Assembly (NCBI GenBank): GCA_002878375.1
Contig: NIRF01000001.1
Coordinates: forward strand, 361,931 to 425,930
Source of the DNA: Dictyoglomus sp. NZ13-RE01
GTDB taxonomy: Bacteria > Dictyoglomota > Dictyoglomia > Dictyoglomales > Dictyoglomaceae
Reading direction: 5' to 3'
DNA: 64,000 nucleotides
Of the stretch, positions 1-42,745 are shown one piece after another. Both the position numbers and the translations under genes were made by a program. Positions within the stretch are counted from its first letter, which is position 1, and every line of letters starts with the position of its first letter. The notes under the pieces are model-generated. The model ran no database searches and was not told the origin of the DNA. It saw nothing but the letters and a program-made list of their open reading frames with translations.

Positions 1-226
1 CAACATAGAATCTATAACCTCTATCAGATGGTATTCTTCCCGCAGATGTATGAGGTTGAATTAGATATCCAGCCTCTTCCAGGTCTGCCATCTCGTTACG
101 AATAGTAGCAGGACTCCAACCCAAGTGGTATTTTTTTGCCAATACCCTTGAGCTTACTGGTTGTGCAGATTCTATATAGTCTTTAACTGTTATTCTTAGA
201 ATTTTTTGTTTTCTTTCGTCTAACAT
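1..226 (-). CDS. hrcA: Heat-inducible transcription repressor HrcA, N-terminal part (runs off the window)
   Basis: HrcA represses chaperone operons by binding the CIRCE operator. Translating the minus strand from the ATG at 226 gives 75 residues of the HrcA winged-helix domain, starting [20 protein letters not shown] and containing [16 protein letters not shown] and the [10 protein letters not shown] motif typical of the family. The rest of the gene lies outside the window. A near-perfect CIRCE element begins 3 bp upstream of the start codon, so the gene is probably autoregulated. No good Shine-Dalgarno is visible, because that position is occupied by the operator. It is divergent from nagA. 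Confidence 0.95.
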
Positions 227-4390: not shown

Positions 4391-5751
4391 AGTTCTTTAC
4401 TCACCACTTTTCTTCCAAAACATTCTCCACAATAACTTTTATTTGGCAATATACTTAATAGTCCCTCCATACTCAGGAAAGCCACAGAATCAAATCCTAA
4501 GAGTTTTGCAATTTCGTCTGGGGTATAATAATGGCTTATTAGCTCTCTTACATGAGGAATATCTACTCCATAATGGCAAGGATATATTATGGGGGGAGAA
4601 GAAAGTCTCAAATGGACCTCTTTTGCTCCTTCTTTACGGAACATTTCTGCCAATCTCTTAGCAGTGGTACCTCTTACTAACGAATCATCTACCAATATAA
4701 CTCTCTTATTCTTAACTACATCTCCCATTATCAGAAGCTTAATTCTAACTGCACCTTCCCTCTGATCTTGTCTTGGTTGTATAAAAGTTCTTCCTACATA
4801 ATGACTTCTCATTAGAGCCATTTCTAAAGGTATTCCACTAAATTCACTAAAACCAATAGCAGCTGGTATTCCAGAATCTGGCACAGGGACAACTATATCC
4901 GCAGGAACATAAGACTCCTTTGCAAGTATCCTTCCCATATCTTTCCTATAATTATAAACACTCTTTCCATTATACAAGCTATCAGGTCTGGAAAAATATA
5001 TGAACTCAAAGAGACAAAACCTTGATTCACCTATTTTATAAACACTCTCTCTAATCTCTCCTTCACTACTTACAAATATTAAATCTCCCCTCTCTAACTC
5101 CTTTATACTTTTAACGGGAAGATTTTTAAATGCACATGTTTCAGAAGAAAAAAGTATACTTCCATCCTCTAAAACAGCCATAAACAATGGTCTAAAACCA
5201 TTTGGATCCTTTACAGCCCAAATTCCCTCATTACTTGCTATCAAAAGTGCATAACTACCATCCACATGATTAAGAGCATTCATTAATCTTTCCTCTAAAT
5301 TCTTTCCTTCCGCTCTTGCCATCAAGTGAAAAATAACCTCAGTATCTGAGGTACTTTGGAAGATAGCTCCCTCATTTTCAAGCTTTTTTCTCAAAAAATT
5401 GGCATTCGCTATATGTCCATTGTGTGCCAAAGCTAAAAAACCATACTTTGGTAAATTAACAATAAGAGGCTGAATATTATTAGGGTTTTGTTTTCCTGAA
5501 GTAGAATATCTCACATGTCCAATGGAAATTTTTCCTCTTAATTTTTTCAATATATCATTATTAAAAACATTACTTACCAAACCATAGTCCTTGTGAAAAT
5601 TTGGCTCTGAAGATTTAAAACTTACTATACCAGCACTTTCTTGTCCTCTATGTTGTAAATTAAGCAATGCATTATATACCAAAAAACTGGATAAATTATA
5701 TTTTGAAGGTGTAATAGCTCCAGCAATTCCACATTCCTCATAAATAGACAT
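4363..5751 (-). CDS. purF: Amidophosphoribosyltransferase
   Basis: Commits PRPP and glutamine to purine synthesis. The 462-residue protein has an N-terminal glutamine amidohydrolase domain whose nucleophile would be Cys7 in EECGIAGAI, exposed after removal of a six-residue propeptide, and a C-terminal phosphoribosyltransferase domain with VILVDDSLVRGTT. Cysteines in FCLFEFIYFSRPDS, in IIYPCHYGVDIP and in the C-terminal SYCGECFG match the [4Fe-4S] ligands of the Bacillus subtilis enzyme class, so this is probably the oxygen-sensitive iron-sulfur form. Confidence 0.97.
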   Translation of the reverse strand: MSIYEECGIAGAITPSKYNLSSFLVYNALLNLQHRGQESAGIVSFKSSEPNFHKDYGLVSNVFNNDILKKLRGKISIGHVRYSTSGKQNPNNIQPLIVNLPKYGFLALAHNGHIANANFLRKKLENEGAIFQSTSDTEVIFHLMARAEGKNLEERLMNALNHVDGSYALLIASNEGIWAVKDPNGFRPLFMAVLEDGSILFSSETCAFKNLPVKSIKELERGDLIFVSSEGEIRESVYKIGESRFCLFEFIYFSRPDSLYNGKSVYNYRKDMGRILAKESYVPADIVVPVPDSGIPAAIGFSEFSGIPLEMALMRSHYVGRTFIQPRQDQREGAVRIKLLIMGDVVKNKRVILVDDSLVRGTTAKRLAEMFRKEGAKEVHLRLSSPPIIYPCHYGVDIPHVRELISHYYTPDEIAKLLGFDSVAFLSMEGLLSILPNKSYCGECFGRKVVSKELCQKELHTV

Positions 5752-5753
5752 TT

Positions 5754-7889
5754 TTATTCCCCTCCTAAAATATCTTCAAGGGGTAAAGACAAATAGGGCT
5801 TTATTTGGAAATGATCCTTTGAAACTTTCCCTATCTTTACAGTTTTCAATTCATAGTCTTTTATTTTCATCTCAAATAAATCTTTCCTTTCTTCGGGAAC
5901 CTCAACAACTATTATCCCACTTGCCTCCCCAAATAAAACTTCTTCTTCCTCCTTATCTATATTTAATTCTACATCAATTCCCTTTCTTCCCCAAATACAC
6001 ATTTCCAAAAGAGTATTTACCAATCCTCCTTCACTTAAGTCGTGGGCGGATAATACAATTTTTTCCTTTCTAATATCCTCCATAAAATTCTTTAACCTTC
6101 TCTCCCATATTAAATCCACATATGGAGGCTCCCCTGCAATCTGATTATAAGCAAATTTAAGATAATCACTTCCGTCTAATCTAAGCCAATTTAAATCACC
6201 AATTAAATACAAAAGATTGCCTTCTTTTTTAAGCCCGGGAGTAATTAAATATGATAAATCCTCCAGCACCCCCACCATACCTATTAAAGGAGTAGGAAAT
6301 ATTCTATTATCTCCTTGCCCATTGTAAAAACTCACATTTCCACTTACAATTGGGATCTCTAATATCCTTGAGGCAAGATTAATTCCTGAAATAACCTCTC
6401 TAAACTGGTAGAATACCTCAGGCTCATCTGGATCTCCAAAATTAAGACCATCAGTAATAGCAAGGGGTTTTCCTCCAACACATAAAATATTTCTACATGC
6501 TTCTGATACTGCATTCATTGCCCCAATTTTAGGATCCAAATAACAATATCTACCGTTACCATCGATTGTAACAGCTATTCCTTTATTTGTTCCTTTAATC
6601 CTTAATACTGCAGAATCTCCCATGCCAGGAGAAATTACTGTATTTGTTTGAATGGAATAATCATATTGAATATAAATTCCCTCTTTTATTTTGACTGAAT
6701 CTATTAAATGCTTAATATAATCATACTTTTTATCTTCCTTTTTTAATAAAGTATTAATTTTTGGAGTCTCATAACCTTTAAAAGGTGGATCAAATTCAAG
6801 AGACTCTTTTGTTAGTAATTTTATTGGTAAATCCACTACTTTTTCCCCTTTAAAGTATGCTATAAATCTTTCCTCATCAATAACCTCACCGATTACCTCT
6901 GCATCCACATCCCACTTTTGACAAATTTCTTTTACTTTATTTAGTACATCCGGTCTAATTATAAATAACATTCTCTCTTGAGATTCCGATATTAAAATCT
7001 CTTCTGCGGTCATATCCTTTTCCCTTTGAGGAACTCTATCTAAATTTAATATTACCCCTGAATTTCCTCTACTTGCAGACTCGGAGACAGCACTTACAAT
7101 TCCCGCAGCACCAAAATCTTGCACCCCAATTATTCCATCTTCTAAACTGCATATTTCTAAACTGGCTTCAATTAATAATTTACCCAAGAATGGATCTCCT
7201 ACCTGAACAGAGGGTCTTTGAGTATGAACCTCTTCATCCAACTTTTCCGACGCAAAGCTTGCACCATGAATACCATCCCTTCCCGTTTTTGCCCCAACAA
7301 GGAGAAGTAAATTACCTTTTCCTTCTGCCTTACCTTTATATATCTTTCTATCAGGAGGAATCAATCCTACACACATAACGTTAACTAATGGATTAGAGCT
7401 ATAACAATCTTCAAAATCAATTTCCCCTCCAACAACAGGAACTCCAATACAATTTCCATAAAAACTTATTCCAGATACAACACCATTAAATAGATAACGA
7501 TTTCTAAGATTATCTTGAGGACCAAATCTCAACGAATCCAAAAGGGCAATAGGTCTTGCTCCTAAAGCTAAAATATCCCTAATTATACCTCCGACTCCTG
7601 TAGCAGCACCCTGAAAAGGCTCTACTGCAGAAGGATGATTATGACTCTCCACCTTAAAAGCTATTTTATAACCATCTCCAATATCTATAATTCCTGCATT
7701 TTCTCCAGGACCTTGATATACCCAATCGGATTTTGTAAGAAAATTCTTTAAGTATTTCCTTGAATGCTTATAACTACAATGTTCAGACCATATTACAGAA
7801 ATAACTGACCATTCTACATCGTTAGGTTCTCTTCCTAAAATCTCAATGGCATGTTTTATTTCCTCTTCTTTTAATCCATGTATTCCCAT
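5754..7889 (-). CDS. purL: FGAM synthase subunit PurL (small type)
   Basis: Catalytic subunit of the three-part PurS-PurQ-PurL synthetase. About 711 residues, the short form that needs separate PurS and PurQ, both encoded just upstream. Visible motifs are [36 protein letters not shown] and ALLDSLRFG. The longest frame opens with GTG at 7898, but the ATG at 7889 has a GAGGTG ribosome binding site at the right distance, so I place the start there. The purQ stop lies within the leader. Confidence 0.96.
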
Positions 7890-37864: not shown

Positions 37865-37890
37865 ACATAAAATTATGAATTAATTTTGAA

Positions 37891-37925
37891 GGGAGAGGCT
37901 TTCACCTCTCCCTTTTTTATTTTTT
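37891..37925 (+). terminator. Rho-independent terminator of the laminarinase gene
   Basis: GGGAGAGG (37891-37898), 6-base loop, CCTCTCCC (37905-37912), then TTTTTTATTTTTT. A textbook intrinsic terminator. Confidence 0.93.
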
Positions 37926-37948: not shown

Positions 37949-39028
37949 ATGAATAAGTTGATACTAAATTTATCAGGAAAAGAGCTAAAACTTCCAAATT
38001 TTTTGCCCGATGCCACATATGGTGTTGTCAAATCCTTGGACACAAAGGACCTAAAACAGGTTGGGGTTCATGGATTAGTAGTTAATACATTCCACTTAAT
38101 AAATAAGCCTGGTATTTCGGTTATTGACTCTTTAAACGGTATCAAGAATTTTATGAACTGGGATGGGATAATTCTTTCTGATTCTGGAGGATTTCAAATC
38201 TTCTCTGTTTTAAGAGAAAATCCAAAATTTGGAAGTATAAATGAGGATGAGATAATCCTGAAAAACAATGAAAAAATCATTATTACTCCAGAAAAGATTA
38301 TTAATGCCCAATTTAAATTGAAATCAGATATTATGATGGCTTTAGATTACTGTACTCATCCTGATGATTCTTATGAGATAAATAAATTATCAGTAAAACT
38401 AACAATTGATTGGGGAAAAAGAAGCAAAAAAGAGTATGAAAAACTTATTAAATCAAAGGAAAATTACAAGCCTCTAATATTTGGTATAATTCAAGGAGGA
38501 AAAGATAAAAATCTTAGAAAGGAATGTGCAGAAGCCTTAATGGAAATAGGTTTTGATGGGTTTGGTTTTGGAGGTTATCCTATTGATAGTAAGGGAAATT
38601 TGATAGAGGATATACTTCAATATACGGCGGAGCTAATTCCCGACAATTTGCCCAAATATGCTATGGGGATTGGAAAACCGGAAAATATAGTTACCTGTGC
38701 TCAAATGGGATATAATCTATTTGATTGTGTTATCCCTACAAGAGAAGGAAGAAAGGGAAAGCTATATATTTATAATGATAAGATGGAAAAAGTAGATATC
38801 TTTTCAAAGGATTTTTACTCCAATATTTTTATATTAGATGGAAAATATGTAAGAGACAAAAAGCCTATATCAGAGTTTTGTGATTGCTTATTATGTCAAA
38901 ATTATAGCAGAGCATATTTACATCATCTTTTTAAATTAGAGGATCCCTTAGCTTATAGATTAGCATCTATTCACAATCTAAGATTCTATATGCAATTAAT
39001 AGATTTAATATGGAAGAAGATATCATAA
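37949..39028 (+). CDS. tRNA-guanine transglycosylase-like protein
   Basis: A 359-residue TGT-fold enzyme, which in bacteria inserts the queuosine precursor at the tRNA wobble position. Catalytic residues are present: Asp78 in SDSGGFQ and Asp259 in FDCVIPTR. The zinc site is C311-x-C313-x2-C316-x25-H342 (CDCLLC and IHN). It is divergent in places: DYCT replaces the usual DECT motif. The frame extends upstream into the terminator, so I start at the ATG at 37949. No Shine-Dalgarno precedes it; TAAACT 7 bp before the ATG could be a -10 for a leaderless message. Confidence 0.85.
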   Translation: MNKLILNLSGKELKLPNFLPDATYGVVKSLDTKDLKQVGVHGLVVNTFHLINKPGISVIDSLNGIKNFMNWDGIILSDSGGFQIFSVLRENPKFGSINEDEIILKNNEKIIITPEKIINAQFKLKSDIMMALDYCTHPDDSYEINKLSVKLTIDWGKRSKKEYEKLIKSKENYKPLIFGIIQGGKDKNLRKECAEALMEIGFDGFGFGGYPIDSKGNLIEDILQYTAELIPDNLPKYAMGIGKPENIVTCAQMGYNLFDCVIPTREGRKGKLYIYNDKMEKVDIFSKDFYSNIFILDGKYVRDKKPISEFCDCLLCQNYSRAYLHHLFKLEDPLAYRLASIHNLRFYMQLIDLIWKKIS

Positions 39029-39798
39029 GAGAAATTCTTAGTAGTAAGAAATATAAAGATATAGAGATTGAATTTTTGAGAAATATTTATAATATCGAGA
39101 AAAGTAAGTACAATAATGAAAAACTTATTATAAAATCTGTAAAAAGAAAATTACATCAAGTTTATGGTTCATTCCTAAATCCCAAAATCTTTGATAGGTT
39201 GAAAGTATATTTAGAAGAATTGACCCAAGATAATTTAATAGATACATGTAAGAATATATTAAGTCTCCATACATCCACTAAGGAGAGAATAGATTTCTAT
39301 CCATATATTTATGAGCAGATCTTCTCAAATATACCAAAACCTAAATCCATCTTAGATGTTGCATGTGGATTAAACCCTTTTTCTATTCCCTTTATGAATA
39401 TAGAAAGAAAAATTCATTATTTTGCATTAGACATAAACTCATCTCTTATAGAACTAATAAATAATTTTCTATTAAAATTAGGTTTACAACCAAAGGCAAA
39501 AGTTTATGATGTAATGTATCATCCAATAGATATTCAGGTAGATTTAGCCTTTATATTCAAATTTATTCCAGTCTTAGATAAACTAAGAAAGGATTATATG
39601 TTAGAATTTATAAGAAATATTCCATCTTATTATATAGTTGTTTCTTTTCCATTAAAAAGTTTAACTGGAAAAACAAAAGGAATGGAAGAACATTACAATG
39701 AAAAATATATATCTAAATTAAGAAATAATTTTTTATTTATTCATGAATTTTCTATTTCAAACGAAAAATTTATAATTATAAAAAAAGAAGATGGGTAA
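39010..39798 (+). CDS. ArmA/FmrO-like 16S rRNA (guanine-1405-N7) methyltransferase homologue
   Basis: A 262-residue protein that, from memory, matches ArmA-type aminoglycoside-resistance methyltransferases along its whole length (ArmA is 257). The N-terminal helical part has ILSSKKYKDIE, KRKLHQVYGSF (residues 46-55) and LHTSTKERI (86-94). The SAM loop is SILDVACGLNPFSIPFM (113-129), then DINSSLIELI, and the family segment VSFPLKSLTGKTKGMEEHY (211-229). Members methylate G1405 of the 30S decoding site and block 4,6-linked aminoglycosides. It overlaps Tgt by 19 bp and RsmI by 8 bp. Function in this organism is inferred. Confidence 0.82.
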   Translation: MEEDIIREILSSKKYKDIEIEFLRNIYNIEKSKYNNEKLIIKSVKRKLHQVYGSFLNPKIFDRLKVYLEELTQDNLIDTCKNILSLHTSTKERIDFYPYIYEQIFSNIPKPKSILDVACGLNPFSIPFMNIERKIHYFALDINSSLIELINNFLLKLGLQPKAKVYDVMYHPIDIQVDLAFIFKFIPVLDKLRKDYMLEFIRNIPSYYIVVSFPLKSLTGKTKGMEEHYNEKYISKLRNNFLFIHEFSISNEKFIIIKKEDG

Positions 39799-40663
39799 GT
39801 TATACGTAATTGCAACTCCTATAGGAAATTTAAAAGATATTACCTTCAGAGCATTAGAGACTATTGAAGAGTGTGATATCTTAGCTGTAGAAGATACAAG
39901 ACACACTCTTAAGCTTCTGAATCATTACAATATCAAGAAAAAGATGATCTCGTACCATAAATATAATGAGAAGGAAAGAGTAAATCTAATATTAGACCTT
40001 TTAAAAAACAAAAACTTGAATGTGGGACTGCTAACTAACGCAGGTACTCCATGCATATCGGATCCTGGATACATAATAGTCAAATGTGCAAGAGAAAATG
40101 GAATAGAAGTGGTACCTATTCCTGGTCCTTCTGCAATAACTACCGCCTTATCTATTTCTGGACTTCCATCTAATCAATTTTTATTTTATGGTTTTTTACC
40201 GAACAAGAAAACTGAAAGAGAAAAAATATTAACGAAAATAAAAAACACAAAGGTAGAAACTATAATTTTTTTTGAATCGCCAAAAAGAATTACTAACTTA
40301 ATGAATTTATTAAAAGATTTTTTCCCTAAATCTACAGTATGCGTTTGCAATGAGTTAACAAAAATGTTTGAAAAGGTATACTATGGAAACATTGATAAGG
40401 TAGTAGAAGAAATAGAAAATAACCCTCATAAAGAAATGGGAGAATACACAGTGATTATTTATTACAATCCAGAAGAAGAGCCCTCTAAATTAAATCTAAG
40501 TGTCGAAGCCTTAATAATTAATGAGTTAGTTACTAATAATCTGAGTCTTAAAGAAGCAATTAATTTGGTATCTAAGAAGTATGGAATATCTAAAAAAGAA
40601 GTATATAATAAGGCTATAAATCTTAGAAATAAAATTTTAAACAATGGAGGAGGAAATCTATGA
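39791..40663 (+). CDS. rsmI: 16S rRNA (cytidine-1402-2'-O)-methyltransferase
   Basis: A 290-residue tetrapyrrole-methylase-fold enzyme that 2'-O-methylates C1402 in the ribosomal P site. Signatures are LYVIATPIGNLKDITFRALE, VEDTRHTLKLLNHY, LLTNAGTPCISDPG and PGPSAITTALSISGLP. It overlaps the ArmA-like gene upstream and plsX by 4 bp downstream, indicating translational coupling. The two rRNA enzymes would modify sites three nucleotides apart. Confidence 0.95.
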   Translation: MGKLYVIATPIGNLKDITFRALETIEECDILAVEDTRHTLKLLNHYNIKKKMISYHKYNEKERVNLILDLLKNKNLNVGLLTNAGTPCISDPGYIIVKCARENGIEVVPIPGPSAITTALSISGLPSNQFLFYGFLPNKKTEREKILTKIKNTKVETIIFFESPKRITNLMNLLKDFFPKSTVCVCNELTKMFEKVYYGNIDKVVEEIENNPHKEMGEYTVIIYYNPEEEPSKLNLSVEALIINELVTNNLSLKEAINLVSKKYGISKKEVYNKAINLRNKILNNGGGNL

Positions 40664-41667
40664 CAATTGCACTGGATGCTATGGGAGGAGATTTTGCTCC
40701 TCAAGAAACAGTAAAGGGAGCAATTGAGTTTGTTAAGGAATTTCATGAAAAAGTTATTCTTGTAGGTAAAGAGGATCTACTAAAAAGAGAGTTAAGTAAC
40801 TATAGCTATCCAGAAGAATTAATTGAAATCTATCACGCATCTCAGGTAATAGAAATGGGAGAACATCCAGCTTTTGCAGTTAAAGAAAAAGAAGACTCGT
40901 CCATAGTTGTTTGTATGAAACTTCATAAAGAGAATAAGGTTTCCGCCGTTGTATCTGCAGGAAATACTGGAGCTGTAATGAGTAGTGCCCTACTTATCTT
41001 AGGAAGAATCCCTGGAATTAAAAGACCTGCTATAGCTACTTTAATACCTACCCTTAGTGAAAAACCTTCCATTCTTTTGGATGTTGGAGCTAATGTCGAT
41101 TGTAAGAAAGAATACTTAGAACAATTTGCCCTAATGGGGAGAATATATTTAGAAGAGATTTTCAATGTTAAAAATCCAAGAATCGGATTATTAAATATTG
41201 GAGAAGAGGAAGGGAAAGGAAATCAGTTGGCACAGGAGACCTATGAACTTCTAAAGAATAACAAATATTTCAATTTTGTTGGAAATATAGAAGGAAAAGA
41301 CCTTTTTAGCTCTATTGCGGATGTTATTGTATGCGATGGATTTGTAGGAAACATTGCTGTAAAAACAGCGGAGGGTGTAGCGGAAACTCTCTTTACCCTC
41401 CTGACAAAAGAACTAACATCAAGTTTGTGGAGTAAAATATTAGCAGGCTTACTAAAACAAAAGTTTAGGAATGTTAAGAAAAAGTTAGATTATAGTGAAT
41501 ATGGTGGTGCTCCTCTTTTAGGAATAAATGGCGTTGTTATAATATCCCATGGAAGATCAAAGGCAAAGGCTATAAAAAACGCCCTAAAGGTATCTTTACA
41601 AGTTGTAAAACAAAAAGTTAATGATAAAATAAAGGAAGGTGTTCTTGAAATATCTGGGGGAGGTTAA
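40660..41667 (+). CDS. plsX: Phosphate acyltransferase PlsX
   Basis: A 335-residue enzyme that makes acyl-phosphate from acyl-ACP for phospholipid synthesis. The start TIALDAMGGDFAPQETVKGA and SAGNTGAVMSSALL, LLDVGANVDCK and VCDGFVGNIAVK are PlsX signatures. GGAGGAGG precedes the ATG. It is not next to fabD, fabH or acpP here. Confidence 0.95.
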   Translation: MTIALDAMGGDFAPQETVKGAIEFVKEFHEKVILVGKEDLLKRELSNYSYPEELIEIYHASQVIEMGEHPAFAVKEKEDSSIVVCMKLHKENKVSAVVSAGNTGAVMSSALLILGRIPGIKRPAIATLIPTLSEKPSILLDVGANVDCKKEYLEQFALMGRIYLEEIFNVKNPRIGLLNIGEEEGKGNQLAQETYELLKNNKYFNFVGNIEGKDLFSSIADVIVCDGFVGNIAVKTAEGVAETLFTLLTKELTSSLWSKILAGLLKQKFRNVKKKLDYSEYGGAPLLGINGVVIISHGRSKAKAIKNALKVSLQVVKQKVNDKIKEGVLEISGGG

Positions 41668-41668
41668 T

Positions 41669-42745
41669 ATGGAAAATAGGTTAGAGAGAATCCTACAAAG
41701 AGCTTTAGACTTAAAAGCTTCTGATATCCATTTAAAAGTAGGTGCTCCACCTGCCCTAAGAGTGTTAGGTGATATTACTTTTTTGGAAGATGAGTATCCT
41801 ATAACTACTGAAGAGCTAAAAACCATGATATTTCCTTTTATTAAACCCCAATTTATCAAGGTATTCGAAGAAAATGGAGAGTTGGATTTTGCTTTTGAAA
41901 TGGAAAGAAAAGTAAGATTAAGAGGAAATTTATATCTTCAAAGAGGAACTTTAGCGTTAGCATTAAGAATTATACCACTTCAAGTGCCTTCCTTTGAGGA
42001 GTTAAATTTACCTCTCACTATACAAAATTTAGTCTCTAAAAAATCTGGTCTTATTTTAGTAACAGGTCCTGCTGGTTCAGGGAAATCTACCACTTTAGCT
42101 GCAATGATTGACTTTTTAAACATGAATTATAAATTGAAGATTATTACTATTGAGGACCCAATAGAGTATATATTTAAAGATAAAAACTCTTTTATAACCC
42201 AAAGAGAGATTAGATTAGACACAAAGAGTTATAGTACTGCACTAAAAATGGCATTAAGAGAGGATCCAAATGTTATAATGGTAGGTGAGCTTAGAGATTT
42301 GGAGACAATCAGCGTTGCTTTACAAGCTGCTGAAACTGGACATTTAGTTTTAAGTACTATTCATACTACAGATACAACTATTACTATCGAAAGAATAATT
42401 GATAGTTTCCCTCCTCATCAACAGCATCAGGTAAGAATACAAATCTCAAACGTACTTCAAGGAATAATATCTCAAAGATTATTGAAAAGAAAAGATAGAA
42501 AAGGTTTAATTCCCGCCTGTGAGATCCTTGTAGGTACCTTGGCTGTTAGAAAGGCAATAAGAGAAGAGAGAACAAACGAGATTCCTAAAATTATTGAGGC
42601 AAGCAAAGTGGACGGTATGCAGTCTTTCAACCAACATTTAGCAGAACTATACTTTAATAAACTTATAAGTGATGAAGAGGCACTAAATGCAAGCCCTTCC
42701 CCCCAAGATCTGAAATTACTTCTAAGAGGTATTACTCAGAGCTAA
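41669..42745 (+). CDS. pilT: Type IV pilus retraction-type ATPase (PilT family)
   Basis: A 358-residue secretion ATPase. Motifs are LDLKASDIHLKVG, Walker A GPAGSGKST (133-141), the Asp box ITIEDPIEYIF, Walker B MVGELRDLETI and the His box HTTDT. The AIRxxK-type C-terminal arm is not obvious, but length and motifs fit PilT. GGGGGAGG precedes the ATG one base after the plsX stop. Other pilus genes are not in the window. Confidence 0.88.
   Translation: MENRLERILQRALDLKASDIHLKVGAPPALRVLGDITFLEDEYPITTEELKTMIFPFIKPQFIKVFEENGELDFAFEMERKVRLRGNLYLQRGTLALALRIIPLQVPSFEELNLPLTIQNLVSKKSGLILVTGPAGSGKSTTLAAMIDFLNMNYKLKIITIEDPIEYIFKDKNSFITQREIRLDTKSYSTALKMALREDPNVIMVGELRDLETISVALQAAETGHLVLSTIHTTDTTITIERIIDSFPPHQQHQVRIQISNVLQGIISQRLLKRKDRKGLIPACEILVGTLAVRKAIREERTNEIPKIIEASKVDGMQSFNQHLAELYFNKLISDEEALNASPSPQDLKLLLRGITQS

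Follow-up and report, generated by a model that had tools for sequence, protein, structure and literature searches.

Organization of the tgt2-rmt-rsmI locus

We analysed a window of 64,000 nucleotides from Dictyoglomus sp. NZ13-RE01 (genome G000; assembly GCA_002878375.1, contig NIRF01000001.1), in which three overlapping genes, tgt2, rmt and rsmI, encode a paralogue of the bacterial transglycosylase Tgt, a homologue of the ArmA-type 16S rRNA methyltransferases, and RsmI. This locus is probably one copy of a widespread accessory tgt2-rmt operon, joined here by rsmI and elsewhere by rsmH, that modifies the decoding site of 16S rRNA. The region comprises the following features.

37888..37925, + strand: intrinsic-terminator-like hairpin with a T run, 3' of a GH16 gene (consensus scan, 11-bp stem)
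37949..39028, + strand: tgt2, Tgt-family paralogue of 359 amino acids, ATG start (PF01702, E 2e-95)
39010..39798, + strand: rmt, homologue of the Arm/FmrO-family 16S rRNA (G1405-N7)-methyltransferases, 262 amino acids (PF07091, E 2e-34)
39791..40663, + strand: rsmI, 16S rRNA (C1402-2'-O)-methyltransferase (TIGR00096, 256.8 bits against a cut-off of 167.9)
40660..41667, + strand: plsX, overlapping rsmI (TIGR00182; synteny)
41639..42745, + strand: PilT/PilU-family ATPase gene, the end of the overlapping run (TIGR01420 above cut-off; synteny)

The open reading frame coordinates bear out the original prediction that rmt overlaps both its neighbours, a Tgt-like gene on its 5' side and rsmI on its 3' side, and the TIGR00096 score confirms the downstream gene as RsmI, for which the NZ13-RE01 genome gave a single match. 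The overlaps measure 19 nucleotides (tgt2/rmt), 8 nucleotides (rmt/rsmI) and 4 nucleotides (rsmI/plsX), and the PilT-type gene in turn overlaps plsX. The tgt2 frame also remains open to an alternative TTG start at 37886. The hairpin, 24 nucleotides 5' of tgt2, is likely to mark the operon boundary; in the 8 kb covered by the scan, chance alone would give about four such sites. Synteny identifies plsX and the PilT/PilU-family gene as ancestral neighbours of rsmI in Dictyoglomaceae, where plsX adjoins rsmI also when tgt2-rmt is absent. Within 37949-40663, GC content is lower in rmt (23%) than in tgt2 and rsmI (30%).

Rmt is a full-length member of the FmrO/Arm family

The profile search against PF07091 returned a significant match over residues 12-255 of Rmt (119.5 bits against a cut-off of 27, E 2.1e-34). 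Eight NCBIfam Rmt models also matched, the best being NF000466 with 233.7 bits over residues 3-258 (E 2e-69). Among proteins of solved structure, phmmer found Sgm (E 1.4e-33), RmtC (1e-29), RmtB (3e-27) and RmtF. The AlphaFold model, with a predicted local distance difference test score (pLDDT) of 93.8, consists of an N-terminal helical domain and a Rossmann domain, and superposes on Sgm (3lcv) with a template-modelling (TM) score of 0.87 and on RmtB with 0.85. Alignments with RmtB, RmtD, RmtE, RmtG and 41 chromosomal members defined the residues invariant in the family, and Rmt keeps H87, S89, T90, E92, R93, C119-G120, N122-P123, D141, K184, P214, M225 and Y229. The resemblance to ArmA over the full length, as first proposed from the sequence, thus holds: Rmt is a native, full-length FmrO/Arm-family protein, and the match lies far beyond chance.

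Rmt shares full-length homology, fold, S-adenosylmethionine (SAM)-site and invariant residues with the acquired methyltransferases (ArmA, RmtA-H) and with the producer enzymes (Sgm, FmrO, KgmB), and its identity to the clinical enzymes in our comparison is about 23-35%. Unlike these, it is chromosomal and encoded in one operon together with Tgt2 and RsmI, in hosts not known as producers. By analogy with its solved relatives, Rmt most likely makes 7-methylguanosine at G1405 (m7G1405) on assembled 30S subunits.

Tgt2 is a paralogue with rebuilt pockets

The gene upstream of rmt had been taken for the Tgt that acts on the tRNA wobble base. We rejected this assignment, because the genome holds a second, ordinary Tgt beside queA (G000:C1:286250), 40% identical to Tgt2, and because Tgt2 belongs to a distinct clade, separated from the housekeeping Tgt by a single branch with a support of 100 in the Shimodaira-Hasegawa-like approximate likelihood ratio test (SH-aLRT). 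Tgt matches in 40 genomes with Rmt fell into two bands, at least 43% identical (Tgt2) and, short fragments aside, at most 38% identical (housekeeping), and most of these genomes carry one of each.

Tgt2 is a member of the Tgt superfamily by profile (PF01702, E 2e-95) and by fold: its AlphaFold model (pLDDT 96) has the Zymomonas TGT as best PDB match, with TM scores of 0.86-0.88. It keeps the catalytic residues D78, D133 and D259 (D102, D156 and D280 of Zymomonas), Q203, G230 and R286/R289 in Zymomonas numbering, and the zinc ligands C311, C313, C316 and H342 of the window protein (CxCxxC...H). We aligned 66 Tgt2 with 29 Tgt sequences and found six positions (V45, L231, A/S232, G234, E235 and L259, Zymomonas numbering) that are conserved in the 29 Tgts and changed in nearly all Tgt2 proteins, and every one of them is changed in the window protein. 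V45 is replaced by Asp in 65/65 sequences, L231 by Trp or Tyr in all, and A/S232 by Pro in 66/66; Asp usually takes the place of G234, most sequences lack E235, and L259 is Ala or Gly. The corresponding residues of the window protein are D21, Y210-P211 and A238, with no Glu at 214.

In Z. mobilis TGT, V45 contributes to the floor of the ribose-34 pocket (PMC5395182), and the 231/232 peptide presents its NH to guanine in the bound state but its carbonyl to preQ1, a flip linked to E235 (PMC3660597). Pro at 232 removes the peptide NH, and loss of E235 the preQ1 switch. With pockets changed and catalytic residues kept, Tgt2 should be an active transglycosylase for a different base and/or RNA. Fold, Asp102/Asp156/Asp280, Gln203 and the zinc site are common to Tgt2 and bacterial Tgt (EC 2.4.2.29), from which Tgt2 differs in being a second copy beside the housekeeping enzyme, in V45D, L231W/Y, S/A232P, the lost E235 and L259A, and in its tie to Rmt. 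DpdA and archaeal TgtA provide a precedent for family members with other targets; they gave weak profile matches to Tgt2, which is far closer to bacterial Tgt, and no DNA-modification genes were seen beside Tgt2. The tRNA-G34 Tgt model TIGR00430 cannot tell the two types apart (Tgt2 scores 323.1 against a cut-off of 306.75, and all 46 members scanned match), so that public annotations of Tgt2 genes are probably misleading.

Distribution and co-occurrence of tgt2 and rmt

A scan of genome contigs yielded 364 Rmt relatives, of which the best 80 loci were examined. In 62 of these 80, tgt2 lies 5' of rmt on the same strand within 1.3 kb, mostly overlapping it or a few nucleotides away. The pair, often with rsmI or rsmH, occurs in Chloroflexota, Bacillota, Armatimonadota and others. 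The order tgt2-rmt-rsmI is found in the window, in genomes G002 and G052 and in some Bacillota, and the order rsmI-tgt2-rmt in Chloroflexota, Armatimonadota, Poribacteria, Aminicenantes and others, while rsmH belongs to the cluster at loci L061, L090 and L103. Identities of Tgt2 and Rmt correlate across 58 loci (r 0.86).

Co-occurrence was assessed in three samples of genomes chosen for neither gene, save the sample-defining genome, with Fisher p-values that ignore kinship among genomes. Among 386 genomes, six carried Tgt2 (after removal of G401), eight Rmt and six both (p 6e-12), counts that four families underlie. The same seven of 399 Bacillota genomes, one of them the sample-defining Rmt genome, carried Tgt2 and Rmt (p 3e-15). 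In 41 genomes of one Chloroflexota family we counted 14 with Tgt2, 15 with Rmt and 14 with both, the defining genome included (p 4e-10). Pooled, Rmt was present in 27/27 genomes with Tgt2, out of 30 genomes with Rmt, and the two genes co-occur even where they lie on different contigs (G449-G452 and G456). Two apparent cases of Tgt2 without Rmt (G401 and G719) turned out, from their score or loop motif, to be housekeeping Tgts, and in G073, G078 and G087, where Rmt is present, the Tgt is of the housekeeping type only. By co-occurrence, Tgt2 is bound to Rmt, on which its role probably depends.

Nearly all Tgt2 carriers also have the housekeeping Tgt and QueA. A WWE3 carrier, a 0.6-Mb metagenome-assembled genome (MAG; L190/L112), has tgt2 and rmt with no match to Tgt, QueA or full-length QueC; most QueC matches covered short segments of other proteins and do not enter the counts. 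In G094, the lack of a housekeeping Tgt beside Tgt2 probably reflects MAG incompleteness rather than independence from queuosine, as Tgt is present in 40/40 further genomes from the family. The WWE3 MAG is thus the sole remaining case of Tgt2 without a housekeeping Tgt, and a weak one.

The same survey revealed further arrangements. In G109 (L188, 5317-7279), a highly divergent member of the FmrO family (55 bits) is encoded next to a divergent Tgt relative of archaeal appearance; the two enzyme types may have come together independently here. A set of Anaerolineae loci carries a tandem second Rmt paralogue (L048, L052, L062, L069, L070, L073, L082, L089, L095, L100, L101, L104, L111, L114 and L115), in which the SAM-site residues are largely kept, KGM (window 223-225) is lost and 185-188 are changed (E-x-H-R); judged by these residues, it may methylate a different target. 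At L073, L109, L111 and L114, tgt2-rmt-rmt is preceded by a gene for a second, divergent RsmI (33-36% identity to the RsmI queries), and a more typical one (47-52%) is encoded a few kb downstream on the opposite strand.

Within Dictyoglomaceae, the pair is present in 2/3 genomes of the genus, G000 and G002, its products being 69% and 49% identical, and the window-type Tgt is confined to these two among the near genomes. It is absent from G001 and from the sister-genus genomes examined, where rsmI adjoins the same divergent gene cluster. None of four sister-genus genomes gave a PF07091 match, and in 3/4 of them rsmI lies at an empty site. This patchy presence makes tgt2-rmt accessory, which does not agree with the housekeeping system originally envisaged; nor does heat stability fit as a general role, with relatives in mesophiles of gut, soil and sludge (by record titles). 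Synteny of the flanks within the genus speaks against contamination. Recent transfer between Dictyoglomaceae and G052/G060 is not supported, as the housekeeping Tgts (56%) are nearly as similar as Tgt2 (63%) and RsmI (57%).

Operon remnants beside acquired resistance genes

When plasmids were searched with Tgt2, the Tgts beside rmtD1, rmtB2, rmtG and rmtE2 came out on top (48-57% identical), and all other plasmid Tgts among the matches listed were at most 38% identical. The rmtG gene has rsmH and tgt2 upstream and a truncated rsmI downstream; compared with the window proteins, the Tgt shows 48-49% identity and the RsmI fragment about 50%. This plasmid block shares its genes and their order, tgt2-rmt-rsmI, with the window operon, and differs from it in the truncated rsmI and in the insertion sequences on its flanks. 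A tgt2 also precedes rmtD, a truncated one rmtE2, and on a Providencia plasmid (L034) tgt2 is followed by a metallophosphoesterase gene (5146-5955) and then rmtB2. A cation:proton antiporter gene lies 3' of both rmtB2 and rmtB1 (L163). No RsmI remnant was found behind rmtD or rmtE, where small downstream open reading frames match no Pfam family, and no Tgt2 or RsmI gene is annotated within 3.5 kb of armA, rmtC or rmtF, a scope that covers annotated genes and not a separate search for unannotated remnants.

A chromosomal counterpart is locus L103 of a Clostridia MAG, to which the rmtG fragments are 75% (RsmH), 77% (Tgt2), 49% (Rmt) and 80% (RsmI) identical, and the rmtD fragments 79% (Tgt2) and 55% (Rmt). 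In the tree, RmtB, RmtD, RmtF and RmtG group with L103 (SH-aLRT 99), and RmtD and RmtG with L103 are nested within this group (98). ArmA, RmtC and RmtE fall into a wider group of Bacillota plus the window, weakly placed on account of their long branches. The plasmid remnants indicate that the acquired rmtD, rmtG, rmtE and rmtB2 came from operons of this type and not from known drug producers. The earlier suggestion of a possible ancestor of the resistance enzymes therefore stands for the type of operon, whereas the Dictyoglomus lineage itself is not the ancestor, since rmtD, rmtG, rmtB and rmtF group with the Clostridia MAG.

The operon context of rmtG (rsmH-tgt-rmtG-rsmI') is already in print in PMC9311965 (citing Passarelli-Araujo 2019), and PMC3904158 notes a tgt near rmtG. 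These passages treat the context of one resistance gene and do not draw the general chromosomal system or the split between Tgt2 and the housekeeping Tgt. In the searchable literature, which includes few subscription papers, we found these rmtG notes only, and no description of the general chromosomal tgt2-rmt system or of the Tgt2 subfamily.

Proposed function and alternatives

In the mechanism we propose, Rmt would place m7G at G1405 of assembled 30S subunits, RsmI would place 2'-O-methylcytidine at C1402, three nucleotides away, and Tgt2, needing Rmt, would exchange a guanine, or the m7G made by Rmt, at or close to the same site; the benefit would be tuning of the decoding site or protection. 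The clinical rmtD, rmtG, rmtE and rmtB would be fragments of such operons caught by mobile elements. Lioy et al., as cited in PMC12406665, reported that ArmA blocks RsmI at C1402, so that coupling Rmt and RsmI in one operon makes sense.

Several observations weigh against this interpretation. The NF000466 score of Rmt is slightly under the model cut-off of 250, and the distribution of tgt2-rmt is patchy and accessory. Rmt occurs without Tgt2 in G301, in Caldilineaceae genomes and with the plasmid-borne armA, rmtC and rmtF. Its mean identity (0.38, versus 0.52 for Tgt2 and 0.48 for RsmI) indicates faster evolution, unusual for a constrained housekeeping enzyme. The rsmI-plsX neighbourhood exists in Dictyoglomaceae without tgt2-rmt, so adjacency to rsmI proves little by itself. 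PF07091 has no match in 14 well-known genomes, hence there is no model-organism phenotype, and our literature search found no biochemical data on any chromosomal tgt2-linked member.

As a tentative extension, Tgt2 could be an rRNA transglycosylase that, with Rmt and RsmI, rebuilds the decoding site by exchanging m7G1405 or by adding a 7-deazaguanine at a neighbour such as G1494, whose N7 is another aminoglycoside contact. To our knowledge an rRNA transglycosylase has no precedent. If this were true, the m7G1405 enzymes of pathogens would represent one half of a pair of enzymes, and most would have lost the partner on mobilisation.

A doubtful alternative is plain self-protection against aminoglycoside producers in the habitat, with tgt2 as a passenger that compensates a cost in translation. 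Rmt belongs to the same family as the producer and plasmid resistance enzymes, is patchily distributed and evolves fast; ArmA-type methylation moreover perturbs RsmI and fidelity (PMC12406665), which makes a compensating partner conceivable. Among the neighbours inspected, however, none was recognised as a gene for resistance or biosynthesis; those that recur serve rRNA modification, rsmI occurring in two arrangements, and Tgt2 stays with Rmt even when unlinked. Many carriers, furthermore, come from groups of anaerobic fermenters, in which aminoglycoside uptake is poor.

It is similarly unlikely that Tgt2 is a tRNA enzyme that modifies G34, or another G, and so rebalances decoding on m7G1405 ribosomes. 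Its fold, R286/R289 and zinc site are shared with the tRNA-binding Tgt, as is the TIGR00430 match of 46/46 members, but in nearly all carriers G34 is already served by the housekeeping Tgt and QueA. The Asp at position 45 of the ribose-34 pocket (65/65), the frequent loss of the preQ1 switch E235 and the small WWE3 MAG, with Tgt2 and no match to Tgt, QueA or full-length QueC, also speak against it.

We hold it to be improbable that Tgt2 is an eraser or repair enzyme that takes out Rmt's m7G, a good leaving group, and restores guanine or another base. The asymmetry of occurrence (Tgt2 without Rmt 0/27, Rmt alone possible) would suit such a role, and so would the pocket: the 231/232 peptide NH that faces bound guanine in Tgt (PMC3660597), presumably meeting N7 by our own reading, is removed by Pro232 in 66/66 Tgt2 proteins, next to an aromatic residue (Trp/Tyr) in all. 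A co-transcribed writer and eraser would nevertheless be futile without regulation, and Pro equally fits a 7-deazaguanine substrate. Hitch-hiking of tgt2 and rmt on mobile DNA, despite the patchy presence, the empty site in relatives and the linkage in most genomes, is very improbable given that co-occurrence holds where the genes are unlinked (G449-G452, G456), spans many phyla and comes with correlated divergence.

Implications

Anaerobic and environmental bacteria, through their chromosomal tgt2-rmt-rsmI operons, emerge as a specific and testable origin of several acquired genes for pan-aminoglycoside resistance, and the source of rmtD and rmtG is placed near a gut Clostridia MAG instead of the antibiotic producers often proposed. 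The analysis also exposes a Tgt subfamily tied to m7G1405-type methylation, whose native purpose thereby becomes open to experiment.

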